Position numbers and translations under genes: made by a program. Positions 5,005 through 42,624 of a DNA stretch of 64,000 bases are shown piece after piece. Source of the DNA: Candidatus Rifleibacterium amylolyticum (lineage in GTDB: Bacteria; Muiribacteriota; Ozemobacteria; Ozemobacterales; Ozemobacteraceae); the NCBI GenBank assembly GCA_009917695.1, contig JAACJG010000003.1, forward strand, positions 372,001-436,000. The letters run 5' to 3'. Within the stretch, counting starts at the first letter, position 1. Each line of letters starts with the position of its first letter. The notes under the pieces are model-generated. The model did no database searches. It was not told where the DNA came from and saw only the letters and a list, made by a program, of their open reading frames with translations.

Positions 5005-5028
5005 TAAATTTTTCTGGAGGTAATGATA

Positions 5029-5187
5029 ATGGATAAATACGTTTGCACCGTATGTGGTTATGAATATGATCCAGCTGCTGGTGATCCCGATAACGGTATC
5101 GCCCCGGGAACACCTTTTGACAAGCTTCCCGCTGACTGGGTCTGCCCGGCCTGCGGCGTTGGCAAGGATCAGTTCGAAAAGATGTAA
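5029..5187 (+). CDS. Rubredoxin
   Basis: A 52-residue protein with the two rubredoxin knuckles CTVCGY (Cys6, Cys9) and CPACGV (Cys39, Cys42), which bind one iron. Also diagnostic are [17 protein letters not shown] and the aromatic-acidic LPADWVCP block. A strong GGAGG lies eight bases upstream of ATG. Rubredoxin carries single electrons in the cytoplasm, commonly to rubrerythrin, superoxide reductase or flavodiiron oxygen reductases in anaerobes. A ferritin-like protein lies at 42.6 kb. Its presence suggests an anaerobic or microaerophilic host. It ends its transcription unit at a strong terminator 43 bases downstream. Confidence 0.97.
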
Positions 5188-5230
5188 ATTCGCAGGCCAC
5201 TAAGGCCGCTGAAAAATGTCTTAAAACAAG

Positions 5231-5260
5231 GGTCTGCAATAAATTGCAGACCTTTTTGTT
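5231..5260 (+). terminator. Rho-independent terminator after rubredoxin
   Basis: A perfect 9-bp stem, GGTCTGCAA / TTGCAGACC, with the tetraloop TAAA is followed directly by TTTTTGTT. It separates the rph-rubredoxin block from the phosphatase operon. Confidence 0.92.
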
Positions 5261-5433: not shown

Positions 5434-8322
5434 ATGAAATTGCGCAGAGGGAACTGGTTCAACCTGTTGGCCAGAATTGTTTACGGCCTTCTGTTGCCGG
5501 CTGGTCTGCTTTATGTTGCTATGTACAGCCATTACGGCCTGGTGCGGGAGCGCCAGATTATGGAATGGCGCGAAAAAATGCGTGACTCGCTCGATCAGAT
5601 CAGCAAGTATCATTCTGATGAAAAATATTTTCATGGCATGCTGCAGGCCGATTTTCGCAGGGCTGACAGTTCTGCCAGGCCAATGCACGAATGCAACCGT
5701 CGTCTGAAATACTATAAATCCAGATACCCCGGCATGTTCAGGTTTACCGTCTACGACTCATCCGGGCGTATTATCGATGAAATGACCGATGAAAAGCGTT
5801 TTCAGTATGTTTTTAAAGGCATGCATCAGGTTATTGCAAGCGTTAAGGCGCATGTAGCCGAAGTAATTATTCCTTATCCCGATCGTCTCAATGATGTGCG
5901 CAGCCGTATTGGTCTTTTGCGCGGATATTTCGGGCAGTTCCTTATGGAAAAGCACCTGAGTCTGCCTCTGCTCGAAGGCTATCTTGGCAGTTGTATAAGA
6001 GCCAGCGAAGAACCTGAAAAGGCGCTGCTCTGGTATCAGCGATTGAAAAATTTTACGATAGTAGTATTTGTTCACCGAGATATGATCGGACGCGATATAG
6101 GCCCGCGACTGATCGTTGACCGCTACAATCAACAAGATACGGCAATACAGCTTGGTTTGTTCGATACTCAGCAGATGAATGTTTATGGTATCGATCGTCA
6201 TCACAACGAAATGGTAATTCAGGCGAACGCTTATGCCAATTCAGCGGTTGAATTTGTCGAAAATGAGCATAGCCTGATCTTTTTCAGGCAGATTTCACCT
6301 CGTTTGATAGTGTTTTCTCTGCTCGACAAACAGATGAATCTGATTCATCCTGAGCGGGCAACTGTCGAATTCATGTTGCGGATGATTCGCTGGCTTATTC
6401 TGGCAGCTTTCTTGGTCTTTTGTGTCAGTCTGCGTTCAGCTGATTTTGCTCTGTCGATAAGGCAGAAGCTACTGTTGCTTTTTCTGTTTGCCAATGGATT
6501 GCCAATGCTGATTCTGGCGGCAACTGCCTATGAGTTTTTCGAACAGAAAAAGAACTCTCTTATCAATGCTACGCATGATCAGTCTGTTCGCATCATCAAA
6601 CAGTTTGACAATGGTTACCCTGATGGGCGCGAAAGAATGGCCGGCCTGATCACCGACTATGTCAGCGAAAAAAATCGCCAGTATGGCAAGAGAAAGTGGC
6701 CAGACGAGGAGATTGAAAGTCTGAAGAAATTTATACTTACCTTCAATCCGGGCGAAAGTTACATCTACGATTGCGATGGCAACCAGATTCTGCACGCCGG
6801 CAGCGAAGCCTTGCCCAACTCGGTAAAGATCATCAGGGATTTTTTCAAGGGCGCTCTCGAATTTTTTAACCATGCTGATGCGGATTTTGTTGGAGCCCGC
6901 CGAACCATGCTCGAAAAGATCACGGATGATAGTGGTCTTTATGCTGGAGTTCTCGAACAGCTTGGCAACATCAGCCCACAAAATTTTGGCTCAGGTCTGC
7001 GCTGGACCTATCTGGAACTGCTGGGTGACCGATCAAATCATGATTCGTGGGGATTTCTGGTGATTTCGTGGCGTCCCGGCGATCTGCAACGCGCCTTTCT
7101 TAATCAGCATCTTGAAGAAGTTAATCGTAAGATCAGCCCGCGCAAACTGTTGGTTATGGAAAAAGGCACCGAAACAATATTCCCTCTGAATGCCCAGCAT
7201 CATCGCCAGGTGCGCAATATAATGCATCTTACGCAATCGCGTAAACTGATTACAGAAAATAACCTCGGTTTGTCGGGAGAACATTTTGTGGCGACTTCGC
7301 TTGTTGGAATCGAGCTGTCTGATGCCATAATCATGACTTTGTATCCGAGCTCACTCATCCTTGGCGAAATCGAAGAATTGCGGCGCGGCGTAATTCTGGC
7401 CGGTCTTCTTAGTTTTTTCATCGTGCTGGTAATTGTCAGGTTTTTTTCGGGGCGCCTGTTACGCCCGGTTAATGCGCTTTCGCAGGGCATGCGTTCGATC
7501 GCGCGCCGAGATTTTAAATATCGCATCGACTATTCCTCGGGCGATGAGTTTGGTGGGCTTACTTCAGCTTTTAATGCAACCATTGCCGGCATGCATGAAC
7601 TGGCTGTTGGCACTGCCGTTCAAGAGAGCCTGCTGCCTCCTGGTAGAGAGCATTTCGGTCGCGTCAGTCTTTTTGCCCGTTCAATTTTTATGAGCAAAAT
7701 GGGTGGCGATTATTTTGATTATTTTAAAGTCGATGAGCAGCGATTTGGCGTATATTTTGGCGATGTCGCCGGGCACGGAATTCCGGCTGCCCTGGTCATG
7801 TCAATGGCCAAGGCGGTGGTCGCCTCTTCTGACGAGGCGAGAAAAGCCGGGCCGGCCGAGCTGCTGAAGAGCGCAAATTCTTTGTTTCTGCACCTCAAAT
7901 CAAGAGGCTGGAAACGCATGATGACGGCGCTTTGCCTCGAAGTGAATTATCAGACAGGTGAATTCAGGGTAGCCAATGCCGGGCAGTGTTACCCGGTAGT
8001 TGTGAGTGCCGCCCGCGATAAAGTTGATTACGTTAAGGTCGTCGGAATGCCATTGGGTAGCCAGGCGCGCAAGCCTTATTCTGAAATCAGCGGCCGGCTC
8101 ATGCCCGGCGATTCACTGATTCTCTATACCGACGGCATAATTGAGGCTACCAACGCCATGGGCGAAGCATTCGACTTTTCCCGCTTTGACAAACTTTTGC
8201 TGGCAAGCTGGCATGCTGATCTGGAAACATGGTGGGAGGGCATTTACCGTGGTTATCAGGGCTGGGCTGCAGCGCAGGATGATGATATCACCTTTCTGAT
8301 GTTGAGATATGACAATGACTGA
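5434..8322 (+). CDS. Membrane receptor with HAMP and SpoIIE/PP2C phosphatase domain (copy A, intact)
   Basis: 962 residues. Predicted order: TM1 about 12-34; an extracytoplasmic segment to about 315; TM2 about 316-335 and TM3 about 346-370; a second extracytoplasmic segment; TM4 about 648-668; HAMP about 669-722; a RsbU/SpoIIE-type PP2C domain from about 735 to the end. Catalytic metal ligands are all present: Asp759 in GGDYFDYF, Asp777 and His781 in GDVAGHG, Asp900 in YTDGIIEA, Asp950-Asp951 in DDDIT. Such enzymes dephosphorylate anti-anti-sigma (STAS) proteins in partner-switching circuits. No STAS or RsbW-type gene is visible here. It is the first gene of a five-gene operon, overlaps copy B by 14 bases and is paralogous to the gene at 11230. 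Confidence 0.9.
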   Translation: MKLRRGNWFNLLARIVYGLLLPAGLLYVAMYSHYGLVRERQIMEWREKMRDSLDQISKYHSDEKYFHGMLQADFRRADSSARPMHECNRRLKYYKSRYPGMFRFTVYDSSGRIIDEMTDEKRFQYVFKGMHQVIASVKAHVAEVIIPYPDRLNDVRSRIGLLRGYFGQFLMEKHLSLPLLEGYLGSCIRASEEPEKALLWYQRLKNFTIVVFVHRDMIGRDIGPRLIVDRYNQQDTAIQLGLFDTQQMNVYGIDRHHNEMVIQANAYANSAVEFVENEHSLIFFRQISPRLIVFSLLDKQMNLIHPERATVEFMLRMIRWLILAAFLVFCVSLRSADFALSIRQKLLLLFLFANGLPMLILAATAYEFFEQKKNSLINATHDQSVRIIKQFDNGYPDGRERMAGLITDYVSEKNRQYGKRKWPDEEIESLKKFILTFNPGESYIYDCDGNQILHAGSEALPNSVKIIRDFFKGALEFFNHADADFVGARRTMLEKITDDSGLYAGVLEQLGNISPQNFGSGLRWTYLELLGDRSNHDSWGFLVISWRPGDLQRAFLNQHLEEVNRKISPRKLLVMEKGTETIFPLNAQHHRQVRNIMHLTQSRKLITENNLGLSGEHFVATSLVGIELSDAIIMTLYPSSLILGEIEELRRGVILAGLLSFFIVLVIVRFFSGRLLRPVNALSQGMRSIARRDFKYRIDYSSGDEFGGLTSAFNATIAGMHELAVGTAVQESLLPPGREHFGRVSLFARSIFMSKMGGDYFDYFKVDEQRFGVYFGDVAGHGIPAALVMSMAKAVVASSDEARKAGPAELLKSANSLFLHLKSRGWKRMMTALCLEVNYQTGEFRVANAGQCYPVVVSAARDKVDYVKVVGMPLGSQARKPYSEISGRLMPGDSLILYTDGIIEATNAMGEAFDFSRFDKLLLASWHADLETWWEGIYRGYQGWAAAQDDDITFLMLRYDND

Positions 8323-11254
8323 CACCGACAAGCGAAAATGCATGGCAAACTGGCTGATGTTCGCATTTTTTGCGGTAGTTGTGCCGTTGCTGGTGGCATG
8401 GCAGACTTTTGTCTATCTTGAGAAGTTGCATGCTGAATCTTCTTTAAGACGCTACCAGATTAAAGCCGCCGACATGCTTGAAAACCTTCGGGTGTCGGCA
8501 GATGCCAACCTTTATGTCTGTTCTTTGATGAACCATACCTTTCAGAATGCCAAAAATCCGCGGCTGCTCAAAAAAGATCTGGAAGAGTTGCGCAACAGCA
8601 GTGGCATGAAGTTTGAATACATTATCTGGGACAAAAATGGCGGTATCCATTCAGCTGATTTTGACTGGCGCAGTACCGGCGCTGATATGCGCTATGCCTG
8701 GCAAACGCTCACCGGCATCGGCAGGCGCAAGATTGAGGTGGCAGATGCCAGTTCAACCAGCAATCTGCGTAAGATTTTCGGGCCGCAGTTTTTTCCCGAG
8801 CTTTACCAACGATGCTATTCCGGGAGAAACATCAGTCTTATTCTGTCTGACAGCTCTCTACAGAAAAAACTATCCTGGATCAGAATGCGGTCAAGCATGG
8901 GGCTGGCAGCTTTTTTTGACCACGATGTTGTCAAGGGTTTACCCGGGCTCAAATTCTTTATCAGTACGGTTGCCAGCAGTTCCGAAATGAAAGTTGGAGT
9001 AGTGAACGCTGAAGACTGGCTGGGTCTCGGCCCCTCTGATTTTTCTAAATCTGAAATGGCAGCGATCAGCAGCAGCTATGAAAATCCTGTCAGAATACGT
9101 GACTGGTATGTTTTTAAAAATGCTCTGAGAAAAGATTTATGCGGCATCTGCTACATAAGTGCTGACAGTATTGAGCGGCTTGCTGTAAATAAATGGGCCT
9201 GGTTGTTGATTGGCTTTCTTATGGCTTTGGCGCTTTATATTCTCTGGCGCAGTTATCGGGTTATCTGTTGTGGTAGCAGTCTCAGTCTCAATATTAGAAA
9301 ACAGCTGATTATTCTTTTTGTGCTGTCGAACGCGATTTCACTTCTGATAATGGCACTGATAGGGCATGATTACCTCGGTCAGTACCGGCTGTATCTACAG
9401 ACAGAGAGCTTCAGCAAGGGCGTAACCTTTCTGCAGAATATCGACGAAATGTTTGTCGGTGAATATTCCCGTCAGCTGCGAAGAATGCGCAAATCTCTCG
9501 GCATTCTGGAGAAGCGCCTTAAGAACCATCGTCCTGACCGCAACAACATCATGGAGTTTCTGAACGCACAGTCTGGCGATCATTTCAGGCTTTTTCTTAT
9601 CGGCAGCACTACTCCATATATTGGCAGTGAGCTGGGAATAATGAAGGATGGCAAGTTCGTCGAAGAGATTCATATCGACTGGGCACGTTACAAATCAATG
9701 CAGACGCTTGTCGATTCTATGGGCAAGCTTGGTCAGTATTATCTGGCGCTGCTCAATCGTAAACCGATTTCTGAAATGATGATGGCACAGGTCGAGCTTA
9801 TTGCAGAATCGCTTGGGCAGCTCCGTCCGCTCGAAATGTTTCAGGAGTTTTTTGCTGCTACCGGTTCGTTCTGGCAGTGGGGAATGGGCTTTCGCTACTT
9901 TCCTGCTTATATCGATCTTCTCAGAGATCCTGACAGCGGGCTGGCCAACTACGTGTTTCTCTATCTGTGGAACGCCGACAGGCTGCACCGGCACTACATC
10001 AACCAGCTTATCACCGATTTTAACCGCAATCCGATTGGAATCAAGGTAATGGCGGTCGATGAAAACTTCTTTTATTCCAATCCGCCAGAATTGCTCGAAA
10101 ACCAGCAGTTGCGTCTCTACTCAGCCAAACTACGCGAGAGGTCTGGTGTCGAAATTGAATTTTGCGACTGGGAAGGCGAACAACATTTGCTTATGGGGCT
10201 TAAATGCACGTCGATAGACACTATTCGTCTGATCGGCCTTTATCCCGCTTCGGCCATAGATCGCAAGGTAACTCGTAAACAACAGATTTTCGTTGCTCTG
10301 GCAATTGTCAGTATTCTGGTTTCACTTGCCATGGGGCTTTTTGTTTCGCGCTCGATTCTTATTCCTCTGGCCGAATTACAGCGCGGTATCGCGGCTCTGC
10401 AGCAACGTGATTTTGCCTTCCGACTGGCCGATCTGGGCGGAGATGAATTTGGCAATCTCGCCAGAGTATTTAACACCACGCTTGTCGATCTTGAAGAACT
10501 CCAGGTTGCTTCTACCGTTCAGGAAAAGCTGAGCGATAACATGTCTGAAGTTGCTCATTCTGGTTGTCTGAAGTGGTTTGCTGCCAGTTCAAGCCAGTAT
10601 CGTTTTGCCGGAGACTACCTTGCTGTTGAGCAGATCTCTGCTGAGAAAGTGATGATTCTTCTCGGCGATGTTGCTGGTTCGGGTATCGGCGTCAGCCTTA
10701 TCGTCGCTTTTGTTAAAGCGGCTCTTTTGCAGCTGAAACAACTGTATGACCGACCAGAACAGCTTTTGTTGCGGCTTGATTTTCTTCTGCGCGAACTGAG
10801 CAACAGAGCTGGTCGCAAATGTATGACGATGCAGTGCGCGCTGCTCGACTGCCAGAAAGCTGAAGTTATTGTTGCCAATGCCGGCCACTGTTTTCCTGTA
10901 AGAGTCAATCTCATCGAAGGCAATGCAAAAGTTGTCGAAATGCCTTCTACTCCTCTTGCCACCGGAAGCAGAGTCTCATGCTCTGTCAAGTCCTTCAATC
11001 TGCAGCCGGGTGAGAGTATGATTCTGTACAGCGGCGGATTTTATCGCAGCTGCGAAAATGGTTTTGCCGATTTTATCAAAGATCTGGTGCAACTTGGAAA
11101 TTGCTGCCCGAAGAAATGGTATGAGACCGTGATTGCCGCAGTAAATGCTAGAATTGATGCTTCTGCCGGCCGCGATGACATGACTATGGTGGTAATAAGT
11201 TTTAACGAAAAGTCGGAAAGAGAAAACGCTTGTCTGAAGACGCCAGAAAAATAA
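8309..11254 (+). CDS. Receptor with degenerate SpoIIE/PP2C domain (copy B, predicted pseudophosphatase)
   Basis: 981 residues with the same layout as copy A: N-terminal TM, first outer segment, paired central TMs (about 295-315 and 328-350), second outer segment, TM, HAMP (LIPLAELQRGIAAL onward) and a PP2C-like domain. Two ligands remain, Asp769 in AGDY and Asp787 in GDVAG. The GHG histidine is Ser791, and the Asp of the TDG motif is Gly909 (YSGGF). The final GRDDMT is kept. Loss of the TDG aspartate usually abolishes metal-dependent phosphatase activity, so I infer a regulatory pseudoenzyme. Outer regions resemble the gene at 14121 (FGPxFFP, FFDHDV) more than copy A. ATG 8309 or 8315 could start; both overlap copy A. 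Confidence 0.85.
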   Translation: MTMTDTDKRKCMANWLMFAFFAVVVPLLVAWQTFVYLEKLHAESSLRRYQIKAADMLENLRVSADANLYVCSLMNHTFQNAKNPRLLKKDLEELRNSSGMKFEYIIWDKNGGIHSADFDWRSTGADMRYAWQTLTGIGRRKIEVADASSTSNLRKIFGPQFFPELYQRCYSGRNISLILSDSSLQKKLSWIRMRSSMGLAAFFDHDVVKGLPGLKFFISTVASSSEMKVGVVNAEDWLGLGPSDFSKSEMAAISSSYENPVRIRDWYVFKNALRKDLCGICYISADSIERLAVNKWAWLLIGFLMALALYILWRSYRVICCGSSLSLNIRKQLIILFVLSNAISLLIMALIGHDYLGQYRLYLQTESFSKGVTFLQNIDEMFVGEYSRQLRRMRKSLGILEKRLKNHRPDRNNIMEFLNAQSGDHFRLFLIGSTTPYIGSELGIMKDGKFVEEIHIDWARYKSMQTLVDSMGKLGQYYLALLNRKPISEMMMAQVELIAESLGQLRPLEMFQEFFAATGSFWQWGMGFRYFPAYIDLLRDPDSGLANYVFLYLWNADRLHRHYINQLITDFNRNPIGIKVMAVDENFFYSNPPELLENQQLRLYSAKLRERSGVEIEFCDWEGEQHLLMGLKCTSIDTIRLIGLYPASAIDRKVTRKQQIFVALAIVSILVSLAMGLFVSRSILIPLAELQRGIAALQQRDFAFRLADLGGDEFGNLARVFNTTLVDLEELQVASTVQEKLSDNMSEVAHSGCLKWFAASSSQYRFAGDYLAVEQISAEKVMILLGDVAGSGIGVSLIVAFVKAALLQLKQLYDRPEQLLLRLDFLLRELSNRAGRKCMTMQCALLDCQKAEVIVANAGHCFPVRVNLIEGNAKVVEMPSTPLATGSRVSCSVKSFNLQPGESMILYSGGFYRSCENGFADFIKDLVQLGNCCPKKWYETVIAAVNARIDASAGRDDMTMVVISFNEKSERENACLKTPEK

Positions 11255-14124
11255 CTCTCTTTCTTGCCAGGCTGACTTTTGCTCTGGTGCTGCCAGTCTA
11301 TCTGATCTGGCTGATACTGGTTTCACACTTTACCATGCAGCGCGACAATGAGATTCAAAGCAGCTTTGCAACTCTTGATCTGGCTCTCGACAATCTCGAA
11401 AATCTGCATGATGACAGGGCTTTTCTGCATGCCGTTCTACAAAAGAATTTTGTCATGGCCGATCGCTCAGACCAGCCGCAAAAGCAGCTGGAAAACCGGA
11501 TCAGGGCTTTCAGAAAGCTTTTTGGTGAGCGCATAAGCTTTGTTGTCTATGACGGAAATGGCGCGATAAACAAGGACCTGACAGAAGAGAAGCGCTTTCA
11601 GTATGTCCTCAAGAGCATGTTTGAAGTAATGGTGTTGTTGCGGCAATATTTTGTCAGCGATCCTTTCGCTGACCCGGCTAGTTTTGACAAGATCAATCAG
11701 CGCATAAACCTTTTGCGTGGCTATTTTGGGCCATATCTGCTGCCGGCTCATCTCTTTGCGCCTCTGCGCCCGGGTTATCTGGGCAGTTGTCTTACTGTAA
11801 GCGATGAGAGTGCGCGCAAGCTGCTCTGGTACTACCCAGGAGATAACTTCTCTCTGGCCTGCTTTATCGATGCCAGGTTGCAATACAATCAGATTGGGCC
11901 GCGACTGATTGTACAGCACTTCAATCATGGCGCTCAGCCAGAAAAACTGGCTTATGTGAAAACCCGAATATACGGAAATTTTGGCTTGCCGCTCGACCGC
12001 GGGCTTGCCAGTCAGTTGTTGATTGAAGTACGTAATTTTGAGAGTTATGCGGTATCCAAGCGTCAGAGCCGCGACTTTCTCGTCAATATCAGACAGGTTT
12101 CGCATGATCTGATTGTTCTCAGCTATCTTGATAAAAGTGGCATAGCTAAGCCAGAGCAGCGTGCTCTCGCGTTGTTGCTGAACATTTTCAGGTGGCTTTT
12201 TGTCGGCGGTTTTATTCTCTATTGCCTGTCTTTACGCCATTATGGATTCTGTTTGTCGGTACCACAGAAAATGCTGCTGCTTTTTGTTTTTGCCAATGGC
12301 TTACCTTTGCTGATGCTGGTTTCAACCGGGTATGAATATTTTAATGAAAAGAAAAGTGAACTGATAAATGCAGCTCATCAGGAATCTCTGCGAATTCTCC
12401 GCGAATTTGACCTGCGTTTTCCCGAAGTGTCGAACTCACTGGCTCAGAGAATGAACGCTTTTATCGATGAGCGTAATCAGCTTTATGGCAAAGAGCAATG
12501 GCCAGAAGCAGAGATAGAAAAATTAAATAAATTGCTGCTCGAAATCGACCCGCAGGAAGCCGCATTATTTGAGGCTGGCGGCCGTCGGCGGCTTTATATT
12601 TCGAATTCGACCGACCGCGCCGAGCGTCTGGTAACCAGTATGTTGATGAAGGCAATTGTCTCTTTTAATCGAAACAAGGTTGAAGAGACAGTCAAACGCG
12701 ACTCGATGCTGGCGAAGATGTCTTCTGACGATCTCATGCTGCACTACTTTTTATCGACACTAGACCGGTTTTCGATGCTTGGAGCTGGTACCAGTGAGCG
12801 TTTCACTTATCTGAAATTTATGGGTGACCAGAAGAATGCAGATTTATGGGGAATTCTGGGTGTCTCCTGGGATCGTAACAGATTTCTACAGGCTTTTACT
12901 CCCGGTCGTCTCGAGCAAAGCCGTGCCGCTGTTCTGCCGAGATTACTGGCAGTAATGGATAAGAAGAGCGAAAGGATTTTTGCGCTGCAAAATGCCGAGA
13001 CTCCTGTAACTCGCAGACTTATGCGTCAGACCAGTAGTCGAAAATTGATTACCGAAAAGGATGTTGAACTTGATGGCCAAAGGTATCTGTTTACATCAAT
13101 TCCTGGTAATGAGCTTTCAGAAGGCATACTCGTCGCTTTCTATCCACAGAATATTATCGATACACGTATTAATCGCTTGAAAATTGCTATTGCTCTTGTG
13201 ATTTTGCTCGTTTTTGCAGTGTTATTTCAGATTGTCAGATTATTTTCACGGCGCCTGCTGTTGCCTGTTGAAGCGCTGGCAGAAGGCATCGGCCATATCC
13301 GGGCAGGTGATTTCAAGTACCGTGTTGATTTTCAATCTGAAGATGAGCTTGGGCAGCTGATAAATGTGTTTAATCAGACCATGAAAGACATGCAGGATCT
13401 TGCTCTCGGAACCTCGGTTCAGGTAAGCCTGCTGCCGGCCGAAAAGTATCGCCGAGGTTCTGTCAGACTTTTTGCCCGTTCTCTGTTTATGAGCAAAATG
13501 GGGGGCGATTATTACGATTATTTCGATCTGCCAGAAAACCGCCTGGGTATTTTCTTTGGCGATGTTGCCGGTCATGGCATACCTGCGGCTATGATAATGT
13601 CAATGGCAAAGGCTGTTATCAGCAGTATGCAGAAAGATTTTGCCGGCCCGGCCGATCTGCTTGGCAGAACTAATAAGATTCTTCTGAAACTCAGGGAAAG
13701 AAACTGGCGACGCATGATGACTGCACAGGTGATCAGTCTTGACTGTCAGTCTGGCGAGTTTGTTATCTCGAATGCCGGACATTGTTATCCATACATCGTC
13801 GGCAAAGATGGTTCTTCGGCAACTCCTCTTGAGATCAATGGCATGCCCCTGGGCAGCGCAAGTAAAAAAGCCCACTCTGAAAGTGCCGCTATTATTGGTC
13901 TTGATGAAACTCTGGTTTTGTACACAGATGGCATTGTTGAATCCGTCAATGTTCAGGGCGAGATGTTTGGTTACCGACGCTTTGCCATGCTTTTGCAATC
14001 AGCCTGGGCAGATGATCTCGAAGAATACTGGAAAAACATTATGTCGGGTTACAAAAGCTGGGCGGTTAACCAGGACGATGATCTTACCTTTATGATAATT
14101 CGTCTGTCCGGAGAATCCAGATGA
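11230..14124 (+). CDS. Membrane receptor with HAMP and SpoIIE/PP2C phosphatase domain (copy A', intact)
   Basis: 964 residues, starting at TTG 11230 with GGAAAGAG upstream, and overlapping copy B by 25 bases. It is a full-length paralogue of the gene at 5434. Shared blocks include LRGYFGP, GYLGSC, IGPRLIV and LLLLFVFANGLP in the sensory half. The four-TM layout and HAMP are the same, and the PP2C ligands are complete: Asp760 in GGDYYDYF, Asp778 and His782 in GDVAGHG, Asp900 in YTDGIVES, then DDDLT. It should dephosphorylate a phosphoserine/threonine on a STAS-type partner in response to an outer signal (family knowledge; the partner is not visible). It differs from copy A mainly in the first outer segment, suggesting a different ligand. 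Confidence 0.9.
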   Translation: MSEDARKITLFLARLTFALVLPVYLIWLILVSHFTMQRDNEIQSSFATLDLALDNLENLHDDRAFLHAVLQKNFVMADRSDQPQKQLENRIRAFRKLFGERISFVVYDGNGAINKDLTEEKRFQYVLKSMFEVMVLLRQYFVSDPFADPASFDKINQRINLLRGYFGPYLLPAHLFAPLRPGYLGSCLTVSDESARKLLWYYPGDNFSLACFIDARLQYNQIGPRLIVQHFNHGAQPEKLAYVKTRIYGNFGLPLDRGLASQLLIEVRNFESYAVSKRQSRDFLVNIRQVSHDLIVLSYLDKSGIAKPEQRALALLLNIFRWLFVGGFILYCLSLRHYGFCLSVPQKMLLLFVFANGLPLLMLVSTGYEYFNEKKSELINAAHQESLRILREFDLRFPEVSNSLAQRMNAFIDERNQLYGKEQWPEAEIEKLNKLLLEIDPQEAALFEAGGRRRLYISNSTDRAERLVTSMLMKAIVSFNRNKVEETVKRDSMLAKMSSDDLMLHYFLSTLDRFSMLGAGTSERFTYLKFMGDQKNADLWGILGVSWDRNRFLQAFTPGRLEQSRAAVLPRLLAVMDKKSERIFALQNAETPVTRRLMRQTSSRKLITEKDVELDGQRYLFTSIPGNELSEGILVAFYPQNIIDTRINRLKIAIALVILLVFAVLFQIVRLFSRRLLLPVEALAEGIGHIRAGDFKYRVDFQSEDELGQLINVFNQTMKDMQDLALGTSVQVSLLPAEKYRRGSVRLFARSLFMSKMGGDYYDYFDLPENRLGIFFGDVAGHGIPAAMIMSMAKAVISSMQKDFAGPADLLGRTNKILLKLRERNWRRMMTAQVISLDCQSGEFVISNAGHCYPYIVGKDGSSATPLEINGMPLGSASKKAHSESAAIIGLDETLVLYTDGIVESVNVQGEMFGYRRFAMLLQSAWADDLEEYWKNIMSGYKSWAVNQDDDLTFMIIRLSGESR

Positions 14125-17021
14125 ATCAGAGACAATTGGCATGGCTAAAGCTTATTGCGGTGACTTTGTTTTTGCCCTCACTTATTCTTGCTGTGGGCAG
14201 CTGGTACATGTTTTCACTCGGGCGCGAACTAAGATTGAGAGATATAGAAAGCGAAGCCGGTGAACTTCTTGAAAGCATGCGCTATGTCGCCGCAACCGAA
14301 AAGTATCTGTGCAAGAGTATCGACGACATTTTCAACATGAATCCGGAAGTTGATAATCTGCAGAATGAGCTCGAAAAGTTTATGAAAAGCCATGAACTGC
14401 GTGCCAGATATATCATCTGGGACGCCGATGGCAGCGTAAAGCACAGTAATTTTGACTGGCACGGCATTCCCGGTAACTGGCGACAGGCCTGGAAAGAAAT
14501 GAAAAAAGTGATCGCCCGGCCAGGATACACAAAAAATATGCCGGAAAAGGCACTCGAAAATCTCAGGCTGATATTTGGCCCGCATTTTTTCCCGCGATAC
14601 CATCATATGTGTTATGCAGGCCGCTTTCTTACTCTTTTGCGAACAGACGTATCCAAAACCTATCCATTAGTCTGGATGAAACTGATGGAAAACTCCAGCC
14701 TGTTCATGTTTTTCGATCATGATGTTCTCACCAGCAGTTGCGGGTTAAAGCATCTGGTTACTAATGAAACGCATGCGCTTAAATCGGGTTACTTTGACTC
14801 AGGCCGGATTGTCACCAACGACACCACTTTGGCGCAAAAGCTGCAGCCCATGATGGAGCGCATGAAGGGCAGCTATAGCCGTATGCATGATATAGCAGGT
14901 TATAAAATCTTTACCAATTTCATTTCAAACAAGATCACCGGTTTTTGCGCAATAGAAACAGAAAAGCTTGAATCTTACAATGTTTCGCTCTGGTTTGTTG
15001 CGGCTTTGCTCGCAATGACCTTGATTGCCATGATTTTCGCGACAGTCTCATACCGACTGGTAGTTCTACAGAAAAGCGCTTCTTTGACTCTGACCCGGCA
15101 GCTGCTGATTCTTTTTCTGGTCTCGAACTTGTTGCCGGGATTTGTTCTGATGATTATCGGCTCTGATTATCTGCAACAGATGCGAAGAAGTCTGGTGAAC
15201 AGCGCATTTGATCAAAGCAACAGCTATCTCCAGAATATTGACGAACTATATATCAGCGAGCTTACCGTGCAGAAAGGACGCATGGAAAAACATCTGCCCG
15301 AGCTTATTGCCGCCCTCGCAAAAAATCAGATAAATCGTGCTTCGATCAGAGGTTTTATTGATAAACAACTGCCGCAGCCATATCGTTTCTTTCTGGTTGC
15401 CAGCGACAGCGGCATTGTGGCCGGTCATCGTGGAATTCTCAAAAATGGCAAAGTCAAGGAATCCTTTGTTAAATCATTTAAGAATGATGATGTTCAAAAA
15501 AACACATTAGACGCAGTTCATAAGCTGGGCAGCTATGTAATGAACGTTCTCAATCAGCGTGCCGTCAGCAAAAAAGTCGGAACTGAAGTAGAATTCGTCG
15601 TCGAAACACTCATGCAGAGAACTCCCCTCGAAATGATTCAGATGTTCATCGAGCTCGATCATTTCTGGCGCTGGGCATTGGGCAGCAAGAGTTATCCGAC
15701 TTATCTCAAGATGATCAGGCTATTCGATCAACAGGTTTACGATTACCTTCTGCTCTACCTCTGGGACGCATACGAGCTCGAAATTGAATTCATGAACCGG
15801 ATATATCACAATCTCAATCGAAACGAGTATGGACTTAAGATTCTTGCGATGGACGAGCGTTTTGAAAAGGCCTTTCCACCGGAAGCTTTGCAACATGAGC
15901 GGATAAAGGAGTTTCTGCTCAAAATGCGCGATCGCACGATAACCCGGCCGGAGTTCTGTGATGTTGAAGGCTCCGAATATCTGCTGATTGGTCATAAATG
16001 CATATTCATGGAAAATCTGCGGTTGCTGGCGCTTTACCCTGTAGAAAATATCAATAAAGAGATTGCCGGCAAAAGAAAATTGCTGCTCATGTTCGTTCTG
16101 GTGAGTTTTCTTGTCTCGATATCGCTGGGCCTGTTCGTTTCTGGTAGTATTACCGGGCCTCTGGCCATTTTGCAGAAGGGTGTCGAAGCCATGCACAAGC
16201 GCGATTTTGCCTATCGCCTGCCTGATCTTGGCGGCGATGAGTTCGGTAATCTCGCCCGCATATTCAATGAAACGCTCGTTGATCTAGAAGAAATGCACGT
16301 TGCCAGAATCGTTCAGGAAAAGATCATGACTCAGATGGATGCTCCTTTAAAGGCAGGCCCTCTGCAGCTTTACGGGCAGACTATTTCTTTGTCGGGAATG
16401 GGCGGCGATTATTTTGAGCTGCTCGAAACAGAGCCTGATAAGGCGGCCGTGCTGCTTGGCGATGTTGCTGGCAGCGGGGTGGCTACCAGTTTGATTCTGG
16501 CTTTTATCAGATCTTCTACCATGCAGTTACAAGACTATATTGCCGAGCCGGGAAGGTTTCTGCATAGACTCAACCAGGTAATGTCGGTTAATGCCGGGCA
16601 ACGCAAACCTTTTGCCTGTCAGTATGCTTATCTTGCCGGCGAAGATATTGTAAGGCTTGCCTCCGCCGGCTTACCTTACCCTCTGATCGTAGATCACCTG
16701 AGACTTTCGAGTTCTCTGCTTGAGATTCCTGCAATACCGCTTGGCTGTAGCCCTGGTTTCAATCCGGCTGTGACTGAAGTGCGTCTGCCGCCAGGGCACA
16801 GTCTGGTCTGCTTTACCGGAGGCTTTATCGGACACGGAACCTTTGATTATGGTAGAATGACTGATCTGATTTGTAATTCTGTCGATGCAGATCCTCAAAA
16901 GTTCTGCCAAAAATGTTTCGATAATTATTTTGCCCAGGTGAATCGCAGTGAATGCAGAAACGATCTTAGTCTGCTGATAATCCACAACCCCGAGGCCGCC
17001 GATGGAAAGTCGAATAGTTGA
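14121..17021 (+). CDS. Receptor with degenerate SpoIIE/PP2C domain (copy B', predicted pseudophosphatase)
   Basis: 966 residues, ATG overlapping the previous stop by four bases with GGAGAA upstream. It is a paralogue of the gene at 8309 over its whole length (FGPHFFP, MFFDHDV, YLQNIDELY). The PP2C domain keeps Asp763 in GGDYFE and Asp781 in GDVAG. It carries Ser785 in place of the GHG His, Gly900 in place of the TDG Asp (FTGGF) and RNDLS instead of DDxT. Copy B has the same His-to-Ser and Asp-to-Gly changes, so they predate the duplication and have been maintained. That argues for a selected non-catalytic role, perhaps pairing with the adjacent intact phosphatase. Its end overlaps slyX by 20 bases. 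Confidence 0.85.
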   Translation: MNQRQLAWLKLIAVTLFLPSLILAVGSWYMFSLGRELRLRDIESEAGELLESMRYVAATEKYLCKSIDDIFNMNPEVDNLQNELEKFMKSHELRARYIIWDADGSVKHSNFDWHGIPGNWRQAWKEMKKVIARPGYTKNMPEKALENLRLIFGPHFFPRYHHMCYAGRFLTLLRTDVSKTYPLVWMKLMENSSLFMFFDHDVLTSSCGLKHLVTNETHALKSGYFDSGRIVTNDTTLAQKLQPMMERMKGSYSRMHDIAGYKIFTNFISNKITGFCAIETEKLESYNVSLWFVAALLAMTLIAMIFATVSYRLVVLQKSASLTLTRQLLILFLVSNLLPGFVLMIIGSDYLQQMRRSLVNSAFDQSNSYLQNIDELYISELTVQKGRMEKHLPELIAALAKNQINRASIRGFIDKQLPQPYRFFLVASDSGIVAGHRGILKNGKVKESFVKSFKNDDVQKNTLDAVHKLGSYVMNVLNQRAVSKKVGTEVEFVVETLMQRTPLEMIQMFIELDHFWRWALGSKSYPTYLKMIRLFDQQVYDYLLLYLWDAYELEIEFMNRIYHNLNRNEYGLKILAMDERFEKAFPPEALQHERIKEFLLKMRDRTITRPEFCDVEGSEYLLIGHKCIFMENLRLLALYPVENINKEIAGKRKLLLMFVLVSFLVSISLGLFVSGSITGPLAILQKGVEAMHKRDFAYRLPDLGGDEFGNLARIFNETLVDLEEMHVARIVQEKIMTQMDAPLKAGPLQLYGQTISLSGMGGDYFELLETEPDKAAVLLGDVAGSGVATSLILAFIRSSTMQLQDYIAEPGRFLHRLNQVMSVNAGQRKPFACQYAYLAGEDIVRLASAGLPYPLIVDHLRLSSSLLEIPAIPLGCSPGFNPAVTEVRLPPGHSLVCFTGGFIGHGTFDYGRMTDLICNSVDADPQKFCQKCFDNYFAQVNRSECRNDLSLLIIHNPEAADGKSNS

Positions 17022-21247: not shown

Positions 21248-21273
21248 AATGACACCTCCCCGAATCTTTATCG

Positions 21274-21303
21274 ATTGTAACACAACCCCGGCAACAAAAG
21301 CAA
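21274..21303 (-). promoter_or_regulatory. Candidate sigma-70 promoter of the Uma2 gene
   Basis: On the minus strand TTGCTT, an 18-base spacer and TACAAT stand 27 bases before the chosen start. The -10 matches five of six consensus bases, the -35 three of six. Confidence 0.45.
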
Positions 21304-21326
21304 CAGCGCCCTGAATCGGGCGCTGT
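21303..21326 (-). terminator. Hairpin between the ABC exporter and Uma2 genes
   Basis: A perfect 9-bp stem ACAGCGCCC / GGGCGCTGT with a six-base loop. Read on the minus strand it is followed by TGCTTTTGTTG, a mildly U-rich tail, and immediately precedes the Uma2 promoter. It is probably the terminator of the exporter operon, 230 bases past its stop. Confidence 0.5.
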
Positions 21327-21384
21327 GCATTGTGGTTACTGCATAAGTAAGCGGATTCACATGCCTTGCTAAGATTATTTTACA

Positions 21385-25634: not shown

Positions 25635-28586
25635 ATGATGCAAAAATTTAAAACAGCAAGGCGGGCAGACCGTTTGATTCTTCTGCTGGCCGGTTTTGTG
25701 GTGCTTCTGATGCCTTTGTGGTTTTTCAACAGCCTGTTAAGGACTTCGCTGCAAAGAACCCGGGAATCTTCTCTCTCATTGCTGCGAGAAGAGCTTCTAC
25801 AGTCGGCAGAAAAGGTCAGGCGCGCCCTTAAGCCCGAGTTCTACGTCGAAGATGTTCTGCGCGAAGTTCACCGGGAAGTACTGCCGCAGATACCACCGGA
25901 TCTCATTGTGATGCAGCCTCAGAAGGATTTCGGGCATGACATCTTCGATGCTTCGTTGCCGGTGAAAATGTTGCAGGGCCTCCGTCGGCGCGGTCTTGAC
26001 GCGATTCTTGTGCATGTCGATGCGCCGGAATTCGAAAAATATCATTACTGGCATTCACAGGAACTCCAGAGCCAGTGTGACGAACCGGACATGCTGGCCC
26101 TGTCGCTTTCTTTCATCAACTATATAACAGCTGTGGAGCTTCATCAGAAGCGTTACGCCAAACTGTGGTACCGTTTTACCCCCGTTGAAAATCTTCCGGA
26201 TAATATCAAACGCGGTCATACCATAGACAAAATAAAGGCGCCATTTGCCTACCTGACCCGGTTCAGCGAAATGCTCGGTGTTCATGACCGGGCAACCGAA
26301 CATTTCACCGACTATTTTTCGCAGCAGTCGATCTTTCGCTACTCATTCTGCTGCATGAGTGCAGTTAACCTGCATGGTGCCTACACCGTCGTCGTGCCGC
26401 AGAAGTCTGTCAGGCCTGAAGAAATGCTGAAAAGCGCACTGTGTATCAACAATCTCGATCACTCTGTCTCTATTACCGACAAGCGTTCCAACCAGTCCGC
26501 TTTTGTCGTTACCCCGGATGGTGCTGATTATTTTATCAAAGCGCCTTCTGAGTTCTGGAACCATCTCCGGTTTTCCGGACTATCAGTTAGATCAGCATTC
26601 TCTGGCAGTAGCGCAGGTTTTGATATAAGAATCTCCGGCCGTCATAAACCCGCGATCATGAGTCTGGAGTCACAATACCGTCTGTTTCGGCTGACAGCAT
26701 CGCTCTTATTGATAGTGTACTGTGCTGCGGCATTTCATTTCTGGTTGTTCGGTCTGCATCTGCGCCTGTCGGTTCGCCGCCGGCTGGCGATGATTCTGGG
26801 GTTGATCGTGATTCTGCCGGTTCTGGGAGTCGGTGCGCTGACGCTGCTGGCGCTGCGTTCTTTTGAACGTGTTGCCGATAATCATCTGATTCAATATACC
26901 CGGAATAATCTACATGAAGTCGCGCTTTTGAACGATGAGAATCTGCTGCGCCAGATGGGGGCAGGTATCGAGATCAAGCGGCGGGTTGAAGCTGAAACTT
27001 CTGATGAGAAAGATTTGATGAAGAGCCTTGAGCGGCCTGAAGATGATTTGAAATGGTTTTTGGCGTGGACCAATTCTATAACGGAGTGTCGAGATGATGG
27101 TGTTATCGCTCAATACAATGGTTTTCGTCTGCCCGCTCCTGCCAACCGGCTCGTGCACAGTCTCGTCGATAAATACATGACAAGCCTTGGTCTGCTCAAA
27201 AGTGGTAGAAAATCGGATTTTTCGCGGACCATGACTCTTGGAATGCTTGACAATTGCGTTACCTCGGCGCTTGAAGAAGCCTGGATGGTACATGAGGGAA
27301 CGGTTCAGCGTGAGCTGACGCATACTGCCGATACCAGTCGCGCCAACCTGCTGGTCGTCAAAAGCGGTAGCGGCCGCTACCGTCTTTTATATCATCGAGT
27401 TTCAAGCCTGGGCGAACATGTGAACAAATATCTGACCAGTCTGGCTGAGAAAAATCCCGGCTGGTTTGTAAGGCGTGGGCTATATGGCAACGTCAGTGTG
27501 GGAGTGCGACAGAGAAAGGTCGGAGAATTGTTCGCGTATACCTGGCCGCCCGATTGTCTGCTTTCTCCAGCCATGACGTTCAGTTTTGAGAGAGCAATGT
27601 CGTCGCGAGATCATGGCCATGGTGTCATCAAACGAGATAATGAGCTCGAAGTGAGAGCATGGCGATATGAGGAAGGTAAGAGCTCTATTCTGGCGGCAAC
27701 CGGTAAAAGCGATGGCATAAAGCTGGCTTTTGCCGATCTTACGGCGAAGATGCTGCTTCCAGCTCTCTTTGGCTATGCCATTCTTCTTCTATACTTTGTG
27801 ACATCTGTCATCGCTGAGTTTATCAATGGCCCGGTCAGAATACTCAATTCTGGAGTCAATGATCTGAACGATGAGAACTATGGTGTTCTGATCGCCGGGT
27901 TTTCACAGGACGAATTTTCCAAGGTTACATCAGCATTCAATGAAATGTCAGTTGCTCTCAAACAGAGAGAAATGATAAAACGCTACGTTTCCCGAGCCCT
28001 GCTTGAAAGAGTGCAGACATCGGATGGCCTTGTCTCGGAAGAAGGGAAAATGATCAGAGTTGCTGTTCTTGCCTCGGATATCAGAAGTTTCACGGCGATC
28101 AGCGAGAAGTATTCGCCGGCAGAAGTCGTCGACATGCTGAATTCGTATTTTACCAGCATGGAATCGGCTATCAGCACTCATGGTGGCTTTATCGACAAAT
28201 ACATCGGCGATGCCATACAGGCAGTGTTTTACGATGATCCAGCTCTGGATAACTTTATTGTACGCGCTGCTCGGTCGGCTCTACAGATGCGGCGCAATCT
28301 CGCTGCTCTGAATCGTTCGCGCCGGGAGCAGGGTTTGTTCACTATCGAAAATGGTATCGGAATCGACAGCGGTCTCGTCGTTTCCGGCAGTATCGGCAGC
28401 GAAAACGGTCGCAAAGACTTTACCATTGTTGGCAGAGTTATCGAACAGGCAGCTCTTCTCGAATCCCTTACGGTGAATACCCGAAGCAGAATTCTAATAA
28501 GCCGGTCCGCCATCGGCAATGCTGGGACGGGCTTAATTACACGGGAGTTTGCCGCTGATTCACTGGAGTTGCTGGATGTCGCATAA
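25635..28586 (+). CDS. Membrane receptor-type class III nucleotide cyclase, metal-site (C1-like) subunit
   Basis: 983 residues: TM1 about 14-34, an outer segment, TM2 about 352-375, TM3 about 384-405, a second outer segment, TM4 about 708-730, HAMP, then a class III cyclase domain (about 805-975). Both metal-binding Asp are present (Asp815 in SDIRSFT, Asp859 in GDAIQAVF), as are Lys855 and Asp928 of the adenine-selecting pair. The transition-state Asn and Arg of the VNxAxR motif are replaced by Glu937 and Leu941. Alone it should be inactive. The next gene has the reverse pattern, so I infer a heterodimeric adenylate cyclase in the inner membrane. The stop overlaps the second gene by 11 bases. 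Confidence 0.88.
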   Translation: MMQKFKTARRADRLILLLAGFVVLLMPLWFFNSLLRTSLQRTRESSLSLLREELLQSAEKVRRALKPEFYVEDVLREVHREVLPQIPPDLIVMQPQKDFGHDIFDASLPVKMLQGLRRRGLDAILVHVDAPEFEKYHYWHSQELQSQCDEPDMLALSLSFINYITAVELHQKRYAKLWYRFTPVENLPDNIKRGHTIDKIKAPFAYLTRFSEMLGVHDRATEHFTDYFSQQSIFRYSFCCMSAVNLHGAYTVVVPQKSVRPEEMLKSALCINNLDHSVSITDKRSNQSAFVVTPDGADYFIKAPSEFWNHLRFSGLSVRSAFSGSSAGFDIRISGRHKPAIMSLESQYRLFRLTASLLLIVYCAAAFHFWLFGLHLRLSVRRRLAMILGLIVILPVLGVGALTLLALRSFERVADNHLIQYTRNNLHEVALLNDENLLRQMGAGIEIKRRVEAETSDEKDLMKSLERPEDDLKWFLAWTNSITECRDDGVIAQYNGFRLPAPANRLVHSLVDKYMTSLGLLKSGRKSDFSRTMTLGMLDNCVTSALEEAWMVHEGTVQRELTHTADTSRANLLVVKSGSGRYRLLYHRVSSLGEHVNKYLTSLAEKNPGWFVRRGLYGNVSVGVRQRKVGELFAYTWPPDCLLSPAMTFSFERAMSSRDHGHGVIKRDNELEVRAWRYEEGKSSILAATGKSDGIKLAFADLTAKMLLPALFGYAILLLYFVTSVIAEFINGPVRILNSGVNDLNDENYGVLIAGFSQDEFSKVTSAFNEMSVALKQREMIKRYVSRALLERVQTSDGLVSEEGKMIRVAVLASDIRSFTAISEKYSPAEVVDMLNSYFTSMESAISTHGGFIDKYIGDAIQAVFYDDPALDNFIVRAARSALQMRRNLAALNRSRREQGLFTIENGIGIDSGLVVSGSIGSENGRKDFTIVGRVIEQAALLESLTVNTRSRILISRSAIGNAGTGLITREFAADSLELLDVA

Positions 28587-31479
28587 AAAAAGAACTCTGA
28601 TCAGTGAAAAGGTTTCTATCTCCGCTGCCGGACTGTTTCTGACATGGCTTTTGATGGTAGTTATTCCGGTTGCCATTTCTTTTATGGCTCTGCATTACTT
28701 CCTTGATGAATATGCCAGCTATTCGGAAACCGGAAAGCTTGCCGATGCTTACAACCAGCTTGAGCTCTACAGGAGCGCTACGGTTGTCGAAAACTTTCTG
28801 ACAGCCCGCACAGCAGTCATATCTGATATGTCTGCCGACAAATTTACCCGAAACGGCCTGGTTGGGCTGAAAAGCCATATCGACAACGCTATCGGCGGCG
28901 AAAGCATTCTGTGTGTTTTTTTTGATCGTGATTGCAGAAATGTCATGGCCATACCCGGCAACTCCGCTGAAATGCCGGGAATGGTTCTGCCCCCAGCTTC
29001 TCTCATGAAGAGGCAGATTCAGTTCCTGTACCAGCAGATGCACGGTTCTGATCAGAAAAATCAGCAGAACAGGACTCTGACGTCTGAAGCTCAGCGCCAG
29101 GCCCTTTCCATGCAGCAACTCTTCAAAACCATAACGCCGGTGACGCTCAGAACCGATCGGGCCGTCAAAAGCTTTTCAGCGCATTATGGCGGCGAACTTT
29201 ATTTTTTATATGTCGAATTCAGGCACCGCTCTGGCGGGCCTGATGGCTGTCTGATCATTCTGAGGGGTCAGGATTTCTCGACGGACTTTATGTTGAAAAC
29301 TTTGCAGCGGCGATTTCCCCTGTGCCGGGTGGCCTCGCGCGAAATTGACGTTGGCAGAAGCGAGCGGCAGCCAGAAATCATGCACAGCGGAGTATTGCGG
29401 CTGAATGATCGTCTTCTCATCACCGCTCCTGCTGATCAGCGCTTCGTCAGACATGTGATTCATGGCGGCGGCATCGTGCTCAGGGAAAATGAGAGCCGTG
29501 CCGTACCGTTTCTGCAGTATCATCTGCCCCTGACGTCGATGCAGCATCATTTTACCGCGGCCCGCCGCGGCTTTGCCGTTATTGCGGCTATACTGGTGTG
29601 TCTGTCCGGTCTTTATTGTCTGCGATCCGCCTTGTTCGGAATAGAACTTACCGGCAGTTTCAAGAGAAGGATTATGGCTACCACTGCGTTGGCGGCGCTG
29701 TTCCCCTTTACTTTCTTTGCCACCGGGTTCTATCTGCATCTGCAATATGACGAGTTTCTCGGCAAAATAAACCTGCTGCAGCATGTAAATGCCAGGCTGG
29801 CCATTTTCAACAATGATCTCGACCAGTATTTTGCCGACATCGAAGGCGTTCTCGCCATGGATCTGCAGCAGATCAACAAAAACAACTATTTCGATGATGA
29901 GCAGGTTCAGAAGATATTTGCCGGCATTGGCGGGCGGGTTCCGATATCGCGCATATTTCTGCAAAGACCGGATGGCCCGGTTGTAACGGAGTTCGCTGAT
30001 AAAATGTCGCGATATGACGAGAACGATCTGAGCACTGCCATCGAGACATTTTTTCCACGACGAACTCTCCAGTTGTTGCAGGAGACAGGTGTTGTCGACA
30101 GAACCCGGCAGGACATTCTCAGTATCCCCGGAAACAATATCAAAGTAGCGCTTATCGGCACTTCCATGATTTCGAACGGTTCTTTTTACAATCTGAATCT
30201 GTCTGACTATCCGGTATGGCTATCCAATTTCAAAATCACCGATAAAGATGCTGATGGCCGCCGGACCGTGCTGGGCCTTGTGTTCGCACGGCTGGAACCG
30301 GCGCCATTGCTCTCCGATTTTCTTGCGAAGAGCGAATTTGCAGCTTTGTCTTATCGTGAGGAATATGGGAATTACCGGATCGAATATGCATTTTTTCCTA
30401 TCGAAAGAACCGGTATGCAGCAGATCTGGCATGGCAGCGGATTCACCGCTAACGAAATTATGCAGCAGGCCGCCGCGCGTAACCGAACAGAGACCGTTCC
30501 CACTACATCTGATTCTGGAGATGAGAGCTTCGTCATCAGCCGGCTTAATCAGGGAATACCGCATATTGCCGTGGCGCTGGCACGACCGCGGGGTATAGTG
30601 ACGAACTTGCGGACATCTCTGATGATAGGTCTGGTAAGTCTGCTCTACCTGTTTCTTCTTCTGTTCATTGCCGGTAAGATGCTTGACCTGTTCTTCGTCG
30701 CACCGGTAATCGAGCTGGCAGACTGTGCTGAAAAAATTGCCCGCGGCGGCGATTCATGGTCGCTCAAATTATCTACCGGCGATGAACTCGAAGAACTCAA
30801 CGAAAGTTTTGTCGGCATGGTCAAAGGTCTGCAGCAACGAAATATGCTCAAAGACTACGTTTCGCAAGACGCTTATTCAGATCTGGCTGCGACTGACGGC
30901 CAGAACCTGGCTCCTGGCGGTGAATATCGTGAGTGCACTGTTTTTTTTGCTGCGATAAAGGATGCCGGCAATGTTGCCGACGAGTCTTCGCCGCAGCAGG
31001 TTGTCGAGTTTCTCAACCGTTTCACGACGATTGGCGACAGAATCGCCAGGGAGAACAACGGCAGTATCGACAAGATTATCAACCAGACGTTGATGCTGGT
31101 ATTCAGGGAAAATGCCGGCGATGAGACGATGCATGCCTTGCGGGCTGCCAGAGCCGCTCTGGAGTTGGCGTCGGCGGTTAAGGCCGCCGGCTACGCCGGA
31201 GTCTATGCCGGTATCGCTTCAGGAACGGTAATCTCAGGTAGAATAGGCTCTTATCAGGGCAAACTTGATTTTACCGTCATCGGCAATCCGGTAAATCTCG
31301 CGGCCAGACTTAAAAATGAGGCAGCCGAAAGCACCACCGGCATCATCATTTCGGGTTCGACCATGCGTCTTCTCAAGGGGGCCGGTCGCGTAAATTTCCT
31401 GCGAAGATGTTCTTTGAAGGGTAAAGCCCGTGAATACAACATCTACGAATTGATCGATCTGCGCGATCAGCCAGGGTAA
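28576..31479 (+). CDS. Membrane receptor-type class III nucleotide cyclase, transition-state (C2-like) subunit
   Basis: I place the start at ATG 28576 (967 residues), with GGAG eight bases upstream and an 11-base overlap with the preceding gene; a longer frame start at 28549 lacks a site. Layout matches its partner: TM1 about 18-40, TM2-TM3 about 331-385, TM4 about 680-702, HAMP, and a cyclase domain about 783-950. Both metal Asp are lost (Ala793 in FFAAIKD, Gln837 in IINQT). Lys833, Asp898 in LDFTVIG, Asn907 and Arg911 in VNLAAR are intact. This complements the preceding subunit exactly, as in C2 of mammalian adenylyl cyclases. A CAGGG-TAAA-CCCTG hairpin spans the stop. Confidence 0.88.
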   Translation: MSHKKRTLISEKVSISAAGLFLTWLLMVVIPVAISFMALHYFLDEYASYSETGKLADAYNQLELYRSATVVENFLTARTAVISDMSADKFTRNGLVGLKSHIDNAIGGESILCVFFDRDCRNVMAIPGNSAEMPGMVLPPASLMKRQIQFLYQQMHGSDQKNQQNRTLTSEAQRQALSMQQLFKTITPVTLRTDRAVKSFSAHYGGELYFLYVEFRHRSGGPDGCLIILRGQDFSTDFMLKTLQRRFPLCRVASREIDVGRSERQPEIMHSGVLRLNDRLLITAPADQRFVRHVIHGGGIVLRENESRAVPFLQYHLPLTSMQHHFTAARRGFAVIAAILVCLSGLYCLRSALFGIELTGSFKRRIMATTALAALFPFTFFATGFYLHLQYDEFLGKINLLQHVNARLAIFNNDLDQYFADIEGVLAMDLQQINKNNYFDDEQVQKIFAGIGGRVPISRIFLQRPDGPVVTEFADKMSRYDENDLSTAIETFFPRRTLQLLQETGVVDRTRQDILSIPGNNIKVALIGTSMISNGSFYNLNLSDYPVWLSNFKITDKDADGRRTVLGLVFARLEPAPLLSDFLAKSEFAALSYREEYGNYRIEYAFFPIERTGMQQIWHGSGFTANEIMQQAAARNRTETVPTTSDSGDESFVISRLNQGIPHIAVALARPRGIVTNLRTSLMIGLVSLLYLFLLLFIAGKMLDLFFVAPVIELADCAEKIARGGDSWSLKLSTGDELEELNESFVGMVKGLQQRNMLKDYVSQDAYSDLAATDGQNLAPGGEYRECTVFFAAIKDAGNVADESSPQQVVEFLNRFTTIGDRIARENNGSIDKIINQTLMLVFRENAGDETMHALRAARAALELASAVKAAGYAGVYAGIASGTVISGRIGSYQGKLDFTVIGNPVNLAARLKNEAAESTTGIIISGSTMRLLKGAGRVNFLRRCSLKGKAREYNIYELIDLRDQPG

Positions 31480-42617: not shown

Positions 42618-42624
42618 TCTCCGT

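Follow-up and report, generated by a model that had tools for sequence, protein, structure and literature searches.

The window, the whole stretch of DNA analysed here, covers 64,000 nucleotides (G000:C3:372001-436000) of a source genome, G000, of 5.39 Mb in 35 contigs. Four receptor genes lie within it on one strand, with successive open reading frames overlapping by 14 (genes 1/2), 25 (genes 2/3) and 4 (genes 3/4) bases (Table 1). The sequence-only reading had described them as an A-B-A'-B' array of membrane receptor phosphatases, each intact enzyme being followed by a pseudophosphatase. This arrangement was borne out, with frames of 962-981 residues and, in all four products, matches to HAMP and to PF07228, the latter over the cut-off (E 4e-38, 3e-21, 3e-38 and 9e-20 for genes 1-4). 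Hydropathy gave the order TM-sensor-TM-TM-sensor-TM-HAMP-PP2C, with four main hydrophobic helices. Gene 1 is 40% identical to gene 3, 19% to gene 2 and 21% to gene 4, and a tree of 32 receptors groups gene 1 with gene 3 and gene 2 with gene 4, so that the likeness proposed for 1/3 and 2/4 also stands. Since the same A/B order recurs in orthologous arrays of related genomes, the pattern is not one of chance. Two close relatives of gene 4 occur in Candidatus Riflebacteria sequences.

Table 1 Array genes, replaced metal-site codons and neighbouring features, in window positions
Feature	Position	Strand	Remarks
Terminator-like stem-loop, parting the upstream genes from the four-gene unit	5228..5255	+	consensus match only
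Gene 1 (A), receptor phosphatase, intact metal site	5434..8322	+	962 aa; HAMP 670-718, PP2C 740-962
Gene 2 (B), predicted pseudophosphatase receptor	8309..11254	+	981 aa; HAMP 678-729, PP2C 750-968
S791 codon of gene 2, replacing the GHG His	10679..10681	+	varies among orthologues
G909 codon of gene 2, replacing the TDG metal Asp	11033..11035	+	motif reading
Gene 3 (A'), receptor phosphatase, intact metal site	11230..14124	+	964 aa; TTG start as listed
Gene 4 (B'), predicted pseudophosphatase receptor	14121..17021	+	966 aa
G900 codon of gene 4, replacing the TDG metal Asp	16818..16820	+	motif reading
N947 codon of gene 4, replacing the first Asp of DDxT	16959..16961	+	second metal ligand gone
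Cyclase receptor, first of pair	25635..28586	+	both metal Asp kept, without the Asn/Arg pair
Cyclase receptor, partner	28549..31479	+	without the metal Asp, Asn/Arg kept

The GGD, GDVAGHG, TDG and DDxT motifs are all complete in genes 1 and 3. In genes 2 and 4 the residues named beforehand are exactly as claimed, Gly replacing the TDG Asp (G909 and G900) and Ser the GHG His (S791 and S785); the N947 of gene 4 is a further lost ligand, absent from that earlier account. We take the TDG Asp to match SpoIIE D746 and the DDxT Asp to match D795, a correspondence made by motif. According to the accessible text of PMC8080068, D628, D746 and D795 of SpoIIE are metal-binding residues. The complete Asp set is present in genes 1 and 3 and incomplete in genes 2 and 4. 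Matches over the PF07228 cut-off, together with a PP2C fold, place the receptors among PPM proteins of the SpoIIE/RsbU type. Structures of A and B were predicted as single chains; the B monomer (mean pLDDT 87.7) has the whole PP2C fold, which aligns with PPM structures with Z scores as high as 24.5 (2.3 Å over 217 residues), 3ke6_A and 6k4e_B being the top matches. With catalytic residues lost and both fold and selection kept, B and B' are predicted to be inactive pseudophosphatases, and we assign them the PPM fold without classing them as active phosphatases.

Loss of the metal site

The two-gene module was sought in related genomes, as the sequence-only reading had suggested, and orthologous arrays or parts of them were found in six relatives (G001, G002, G003, G004, G005 and G019) and compared with the window. 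Across these seven genomes every motif of the A and A' genes is intact. The TDG Asp is absent from all 12 B and B' sequences (two of them partial), its position being occupied by Gly, Ala or Ser or missing, and the B' of G003 and of G004 has lost further ligands. The nearest pair with an intact B is the C12 pair of the source genome. In a tree of the sensor region, B and B' group together against this intact B with support of 95/94, and the AU test gave 0.040 and 0.027 against the two trees that need separate losses. A tree of the PP2C domain alone, made without the motif columns, was not decisive (AU 0.30 and 0.21), one outgroup row being missing from it.

These results bear on the earlier proposal that the module was duplicated after the site had been lost. 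The duplication is upheld, and a single loss of the TDG Asp before the module doubled is probable from the 12 sequences and the sensor tree, which favours one loss over independent losses in B and B'. One shared His-to-Ser loss at the GHG motif is ruled out, as the residue varies among orthologues: it is His in G002 B, G005 B and G001 B', Lys in G001 B and Gln in G019 B. Frame-disrupting mutations, the other observation that had been set against the proposal, were absent from the B-type genes read in relatives; an apparent frame break in G001 B' is a run of N in the assembly. G012 has a module remnant with damage to both A and B, at about 41500-43500 of G012:C82 (L096) near a contig end, where an A gene with an internal deletion precedes a B gene without its first 505 residues. 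It may represent decay or misassembly.

Could B nonetheless be a phosphatase, or possess an altered metal chemistry, and hence not be dead? Gene 2 retains D787 (the GDV Asp) and the DDxT Asp, and PHLPP2 and TAB1, reported pseudophosphatases, still bind one metal according to the available part of PMC12002173. Against this, the residue missing from or replaced in all 12 sequences corresponds by motif to a metal-binding residue of SpoIIE (PMC8080068, accessible text), and other ligands are lost too in gene 4, G003 and G004; we therefore consider an active B highly improbable. PHLPP2 and TAB1 resemble B in combining a PP2C fold and lost metal ligands with long evolutionary retention (PMC12002173, same part), but they come from animals and do not belong to receptors in which a neighbouring active paralogue is the partner.

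Pairing across the genome and decay within pairs

The stretches around all 48 PF07228 matches of the source genome were examined, and a profile of our own resolved 47 distinct PP2C genes around them. All 32 genes with the window-type ectodomain lie in 16 adjacent pairs, as judged with a sensor profile (A5) whose 17 training members were all drawn from pairs; none of the 15 genes without this ectodomain lies in such a pair. The ectodomain profile has matches in 24/24 genomes of the window's family and in 0/15 genomes of other families in the phylum. No Pfam family exceeded its cut-off in the ectodomain of 17 members, PDB sequence matches to the ectodomain did not go below E 0.15, and the matches of a whole-protein structure search were filled by the PP2C domain.

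In the maximum-likelihood tree of the 32 receptors, ten first members (99/99) and ten second members (100/100) form two clades with mirrored branching. Over all 16 pairs the first/second label needs six changes on this tree, and deeper relations are mixed. A FastTree of 182 proteins from 12 genomes repeats the mirror pattern inside each subfamily, its deep nodes being weakly supported. Judging from these trees, the two-gene module is old and has been copied as a unit. Such mirroring arises because linked genes were co-duplicated; contact between A and B does not follow from it.

Over the 12 genomes, 92 neighbour pairs were reduced to 89 by removing the cyclase pair of the window, a divergent chance neighbour (G005_C144) and a contig-end fragment (G005_C40). 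The 89 comprise 82 tandem pairs, 32 of them with an overlap of exactly 4 bases, and seven that are convergent yet adjacent. Regions of the other genomes were picked mostly for two side-by-side PF07228 matches, which biases the pairing rate there; since these outside pairs were picked for adjacency, the counts over 89 pairs describe the decay of pairs and not the frequency of pairing elsewhere.

Both sites are intact in 60 pairs, one is degenerate in 23 and both are degenerate in six (G020_C2_90484 and G020_C36_125069 were scored as intact from their C-termini, though the alignment read them as degenerate). The degenerate member is the second in 13 pairs, the first in ten and both in six. Because 60 of the 89 keep both sites, and because the dead member may be first or second, the pair is on these counts older and more general than the loss of the site, and pairing is independent of a dead partner. 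The retention of the same inactive form in both copies had been read as a sign that the pair works together. This main inference probably holds, but it is incomplete in view of the 60 pairs in which both members are intact.

The degenerate genes form 11 clades, of which nine are without any degenerate partner. The remaining two are the first and second members of a single lineage, the C8 type, in which degeneracy extends over a wider set of first members, suggesting that these died before their partners. Since both members of the six doubly degenerate pairs, all of one lineage, have degenerate sites, an intact PP2C is not always needed. The C8 pair itself (G000:C8:79175-85080, L044) has a first member without all or nearly all metal ligands and a second member with a degraded site; its relatives in G002, G005, G012, G014 and G021 keep their full length across genera. 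In the C17 pair (G000:C17:83736-89623, L055), also found in G002 and G005, the first member is degenerate, with E, S and E at three metal positions. A candidate fusion of two PP2C receptors, G020_C13 (1949 aa), was rejected, its upstream half being a low-complexity open frame in which a second receptor was not seen; fusions were not found among the PP2C receptors examined.

Selection on B and the case for a proposed heterodimer

Identities were compared over three genomes, taking A and B from G000, G002 and G005, and A' and B' from G000, G002 and G001. In the PP2C domain A and A' reach 80% and 78%, B and B' 58% and 66%; the values for A, B, A' and B', in this order, are 70, 75, 79 and 83% in the second sensor and 78, 85, 81 and 91% in HAMP. 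The codon-level check proposed for B and B' revealed purifying selection: pairwise models rejected omega=1 in every region tested, with most dS values saturated, and the G001-G002 comparison, which has usable dS, gave a PP2C omega of 0.091 in A' against 0.166 in B'. Relative to the remainder of the domain, B (p 0.0011), B' (p 2e-5) and C8 (p 3e-5) retain the first switch helix and the helix that precedes PP2C. The test is not specific, since one of three intact control pairs was positive (C7_11117 vs C7_8161, p 0.003) and two were negative; the C17 dead-member pair was negative as well (p 0.18). In terms of RsbU-like switch helices, and subject to these same controls, B, B' and the dead C8 member retain a0 and a1, and of these three the C8 member alone retains a2. 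As read from these comparisons, dead members are relaxed in the PP2C core and conserved in the second sensor, HAMP and the linker helix.

One alternative is the decay of redundant copies. Under it the tandem receptors are independent homodimers, one copy of which slowly loses its enzyme without gaining a new role, and the 11 degenerate clades, spread among first or second members, are in keeping with it, as are the additional ligands gone from B' of G003 and G004 and the G012 remnant, which would mean that modules can be lost. We nevertheless think it unlikely, for the dead forms persist with full-length frames across the array genomes and, in the case of C8, also across genera; all domains have omega values far below 1; and the second sensor and HAMP are not relaxed.

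We favour a different explanation, to which we give a probability of roughly 0.65, namely that the A-B pair is a heterodimeric receptor with B as a non-catalytic sensing subunit. Each pair would form one transmembrane receptor in which both subunits carry the double ectodomain, HAMP and PP2C, and in which both ectodomains sense. HAMP and the linker would pair A with B. A alone would dephosphorylate, probably acting on STAS anti-anti-sigma proteins, and B would contribute sensing together with the second half of a HAMP/linker/switch dimer that turns A on or off. We infer the physical dimerisation of A with B, the direction of regulation, the substrates and the ligands. STAS proteins are the likely substrates of the PP2C domains; the genome contains 15 matches to STAS (13 above the cut-off) and 16 to HATPase_c_2 (nine above it), none of either in the array. 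Because the second sensor of each array pair has lost its enzyme site and yet has been kept, the array suggests that a working sensor consists of two different halves, only one of which needs to be an enzyme.

B may instead serve as a decoy or substrate trap, its PP2C domain binding phosphorylated STAS protein without cleavage and competing with A instead of pairing with it. The predicted intact fold of this domain (Z 24.5 to 3ke6_A and 6k4e_B) and the purifying selection still acting on it are compatible with such a role. However, B is most relaxed in the PP2C core, leaving aside the linker and first switch helix, whereas its second sensor and HAMP are conserved at least as well as those of A; the trap also leaves genome-wide pairing unexplained, and we judge it quite unlikely.

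The proposed heterodimer has partial counterparts in known systems. SiaA of Pseudomonas aeruginosa, like the array receptors, combines a membrane sensor, HAMP and a SpoIIE-type PP2C in one chain, and 6k4e, among the top matches of the B model, is its PP2C structure. The SiaA model (NF038263) is the best NCBIfam model for gene 1, at 60 bits (32 for gene 2), far short of its equivalog cut-off of 700. To our knowledge, SiaA is not a member of a dead/live receptor pair. The available portion of PMC12143880 describes RsbU-type PPM phosphatases as dimerising through a crossing helical linker and switch helices, an arrangement modelled for a HAMP-linked phosphatase too, and Escherichia coli RssB as a PPM-derived adaptor without phosphatase activity. 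RsbU thus shares with the proposed pair a PPM dimer formed through linker and switch helices, and RssB an inactive PPM domain; RsbU, however, is a homodimer activated by RsbT and RssB a response-regulator adaptor, and neither is an A-B receptor pair. In the trypanosome AdoMetDC-prozyme system, a paralogue without catalytic activity forms a heterodimer with the live enzyme and activates it (PMC5201418, in its accessible part), much as we propose for A and B, although the enzyme is unrelated and forms one pair and not a genome-wide family.

Split cyclases, a possible wider receptor class and the surrounding genes

The genome has 61 cyclase matches, and the regions read contain 13 two-gene cyclase pairs and five ORFs of 1986-2020 aa with two cyclase domains each. 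All 18 are complementary: one half carries both metal Asp residues but is missing Asn, Arg or both of these, whereas in the other half Asn and Arg are present and the first metal Asp is absent. In the same set the six unpaired cyclases are all complete; two of them have an ectodomain match, their neighbours being unrelated. In class III cyclases the metal Asp and the Asn/Arg residues meet across the dimer. With the residues of the site split between halves in this way, these pairs should not work as homodimers, and all 18 (13 two-gene, five fused) have the residue distribution of a heterodimeric class III cyclase. The parallel earlier drawn between the phosphatase pairs and the nearby cyclases is accordingly stronger than had been claimed.

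The active site of mammalian membrane adenylyl cyclases is divided between C1 and C2. The cyclase pairs and fusions described here likewise split it between two different halves. Mycobacterium tuberculosis Cya must dimerise to function (PMC9433096, available text). Cya is a homodimer with six TM helices; the Riflebacteria cyclases differ in having large ectodomains and HAMP, with about four TM helices predicted for each half, and most are encoded as two genes. The five two-domain ORFs lie at G000:C23:12750-18764 and 18815-24790 (L208), G000:C1:380459-386509 (L209), and G000:C1:333888-339848 and 339845-345907 (L210), and the metal half comes first in all of them.

The cyclase receptors at 25635-31479 carry ectodomains related to those of the phosphatase receptors: comparison of PP2C and cyclase ectodomain profiles gave 99.6% over 620 columns, single-pair E-values not being calibrated in these comparisons. 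Like-with-like comparisons gave 95% and 97% and crossed ones 6% and 73% (the latter over 55 columns); the sensor profiles of first and second phosphatases gave 86.5% over 75 columns. Sensor matches are weak or absent for several other cyclases, and by these profiles the relation between PP2C and cyclase ectodomains is firm for some pairs only.

We are inclined to believe that one Riflebacteria family possesses a class of heterodimeric receptors with one ectodomain type and two exchangeable outputs. One output would be PP2C, in which a single catalytic subunit is enough and its partner has repeatedly turned into a pseudoenzyme; the other would be class III cyclase, in which the active site is always divided between halves that are sometimes fused. 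From their chemistry, the cyclase pairs would argue independently for heterodimers that carry a related ectodomain. Should this be correct, the family would be a bacterial counterpart of the two-halved adenylyl cyclase of mammals and a natural series showing how obligate heterodimers originate. Within this one family, dead enzymes would have become working signalling subunits repeatedly, at points that can be counted. It would then become testable when a duplicated homodimer turns into an obligate heterodimer and what the pseudoenzyme contributes, the 11 degenerate clades and their intact sister pairs, as controls, forming an unusual comparative series. Among the literature matches listed, read as titles and the starts of abstracts, with preprints and many subscription journals outside their scope, we found no description of such receptor pairs.

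Upstream of the array lie Ham1 and CheW, and downstream Uma2, two ABC transporters and the cyclase pair of Table 1, an order partly kept in relatives. The Uma2-family ORF (20540-21283), between the array and the two ABC transporters, is present in several related loci. Between the CheW gene and the array is a small ORF (5028-5186), named rubredoxin-like by eye, which is followed by a terminator-like hairpin and by short TCGTAA-type repeats.
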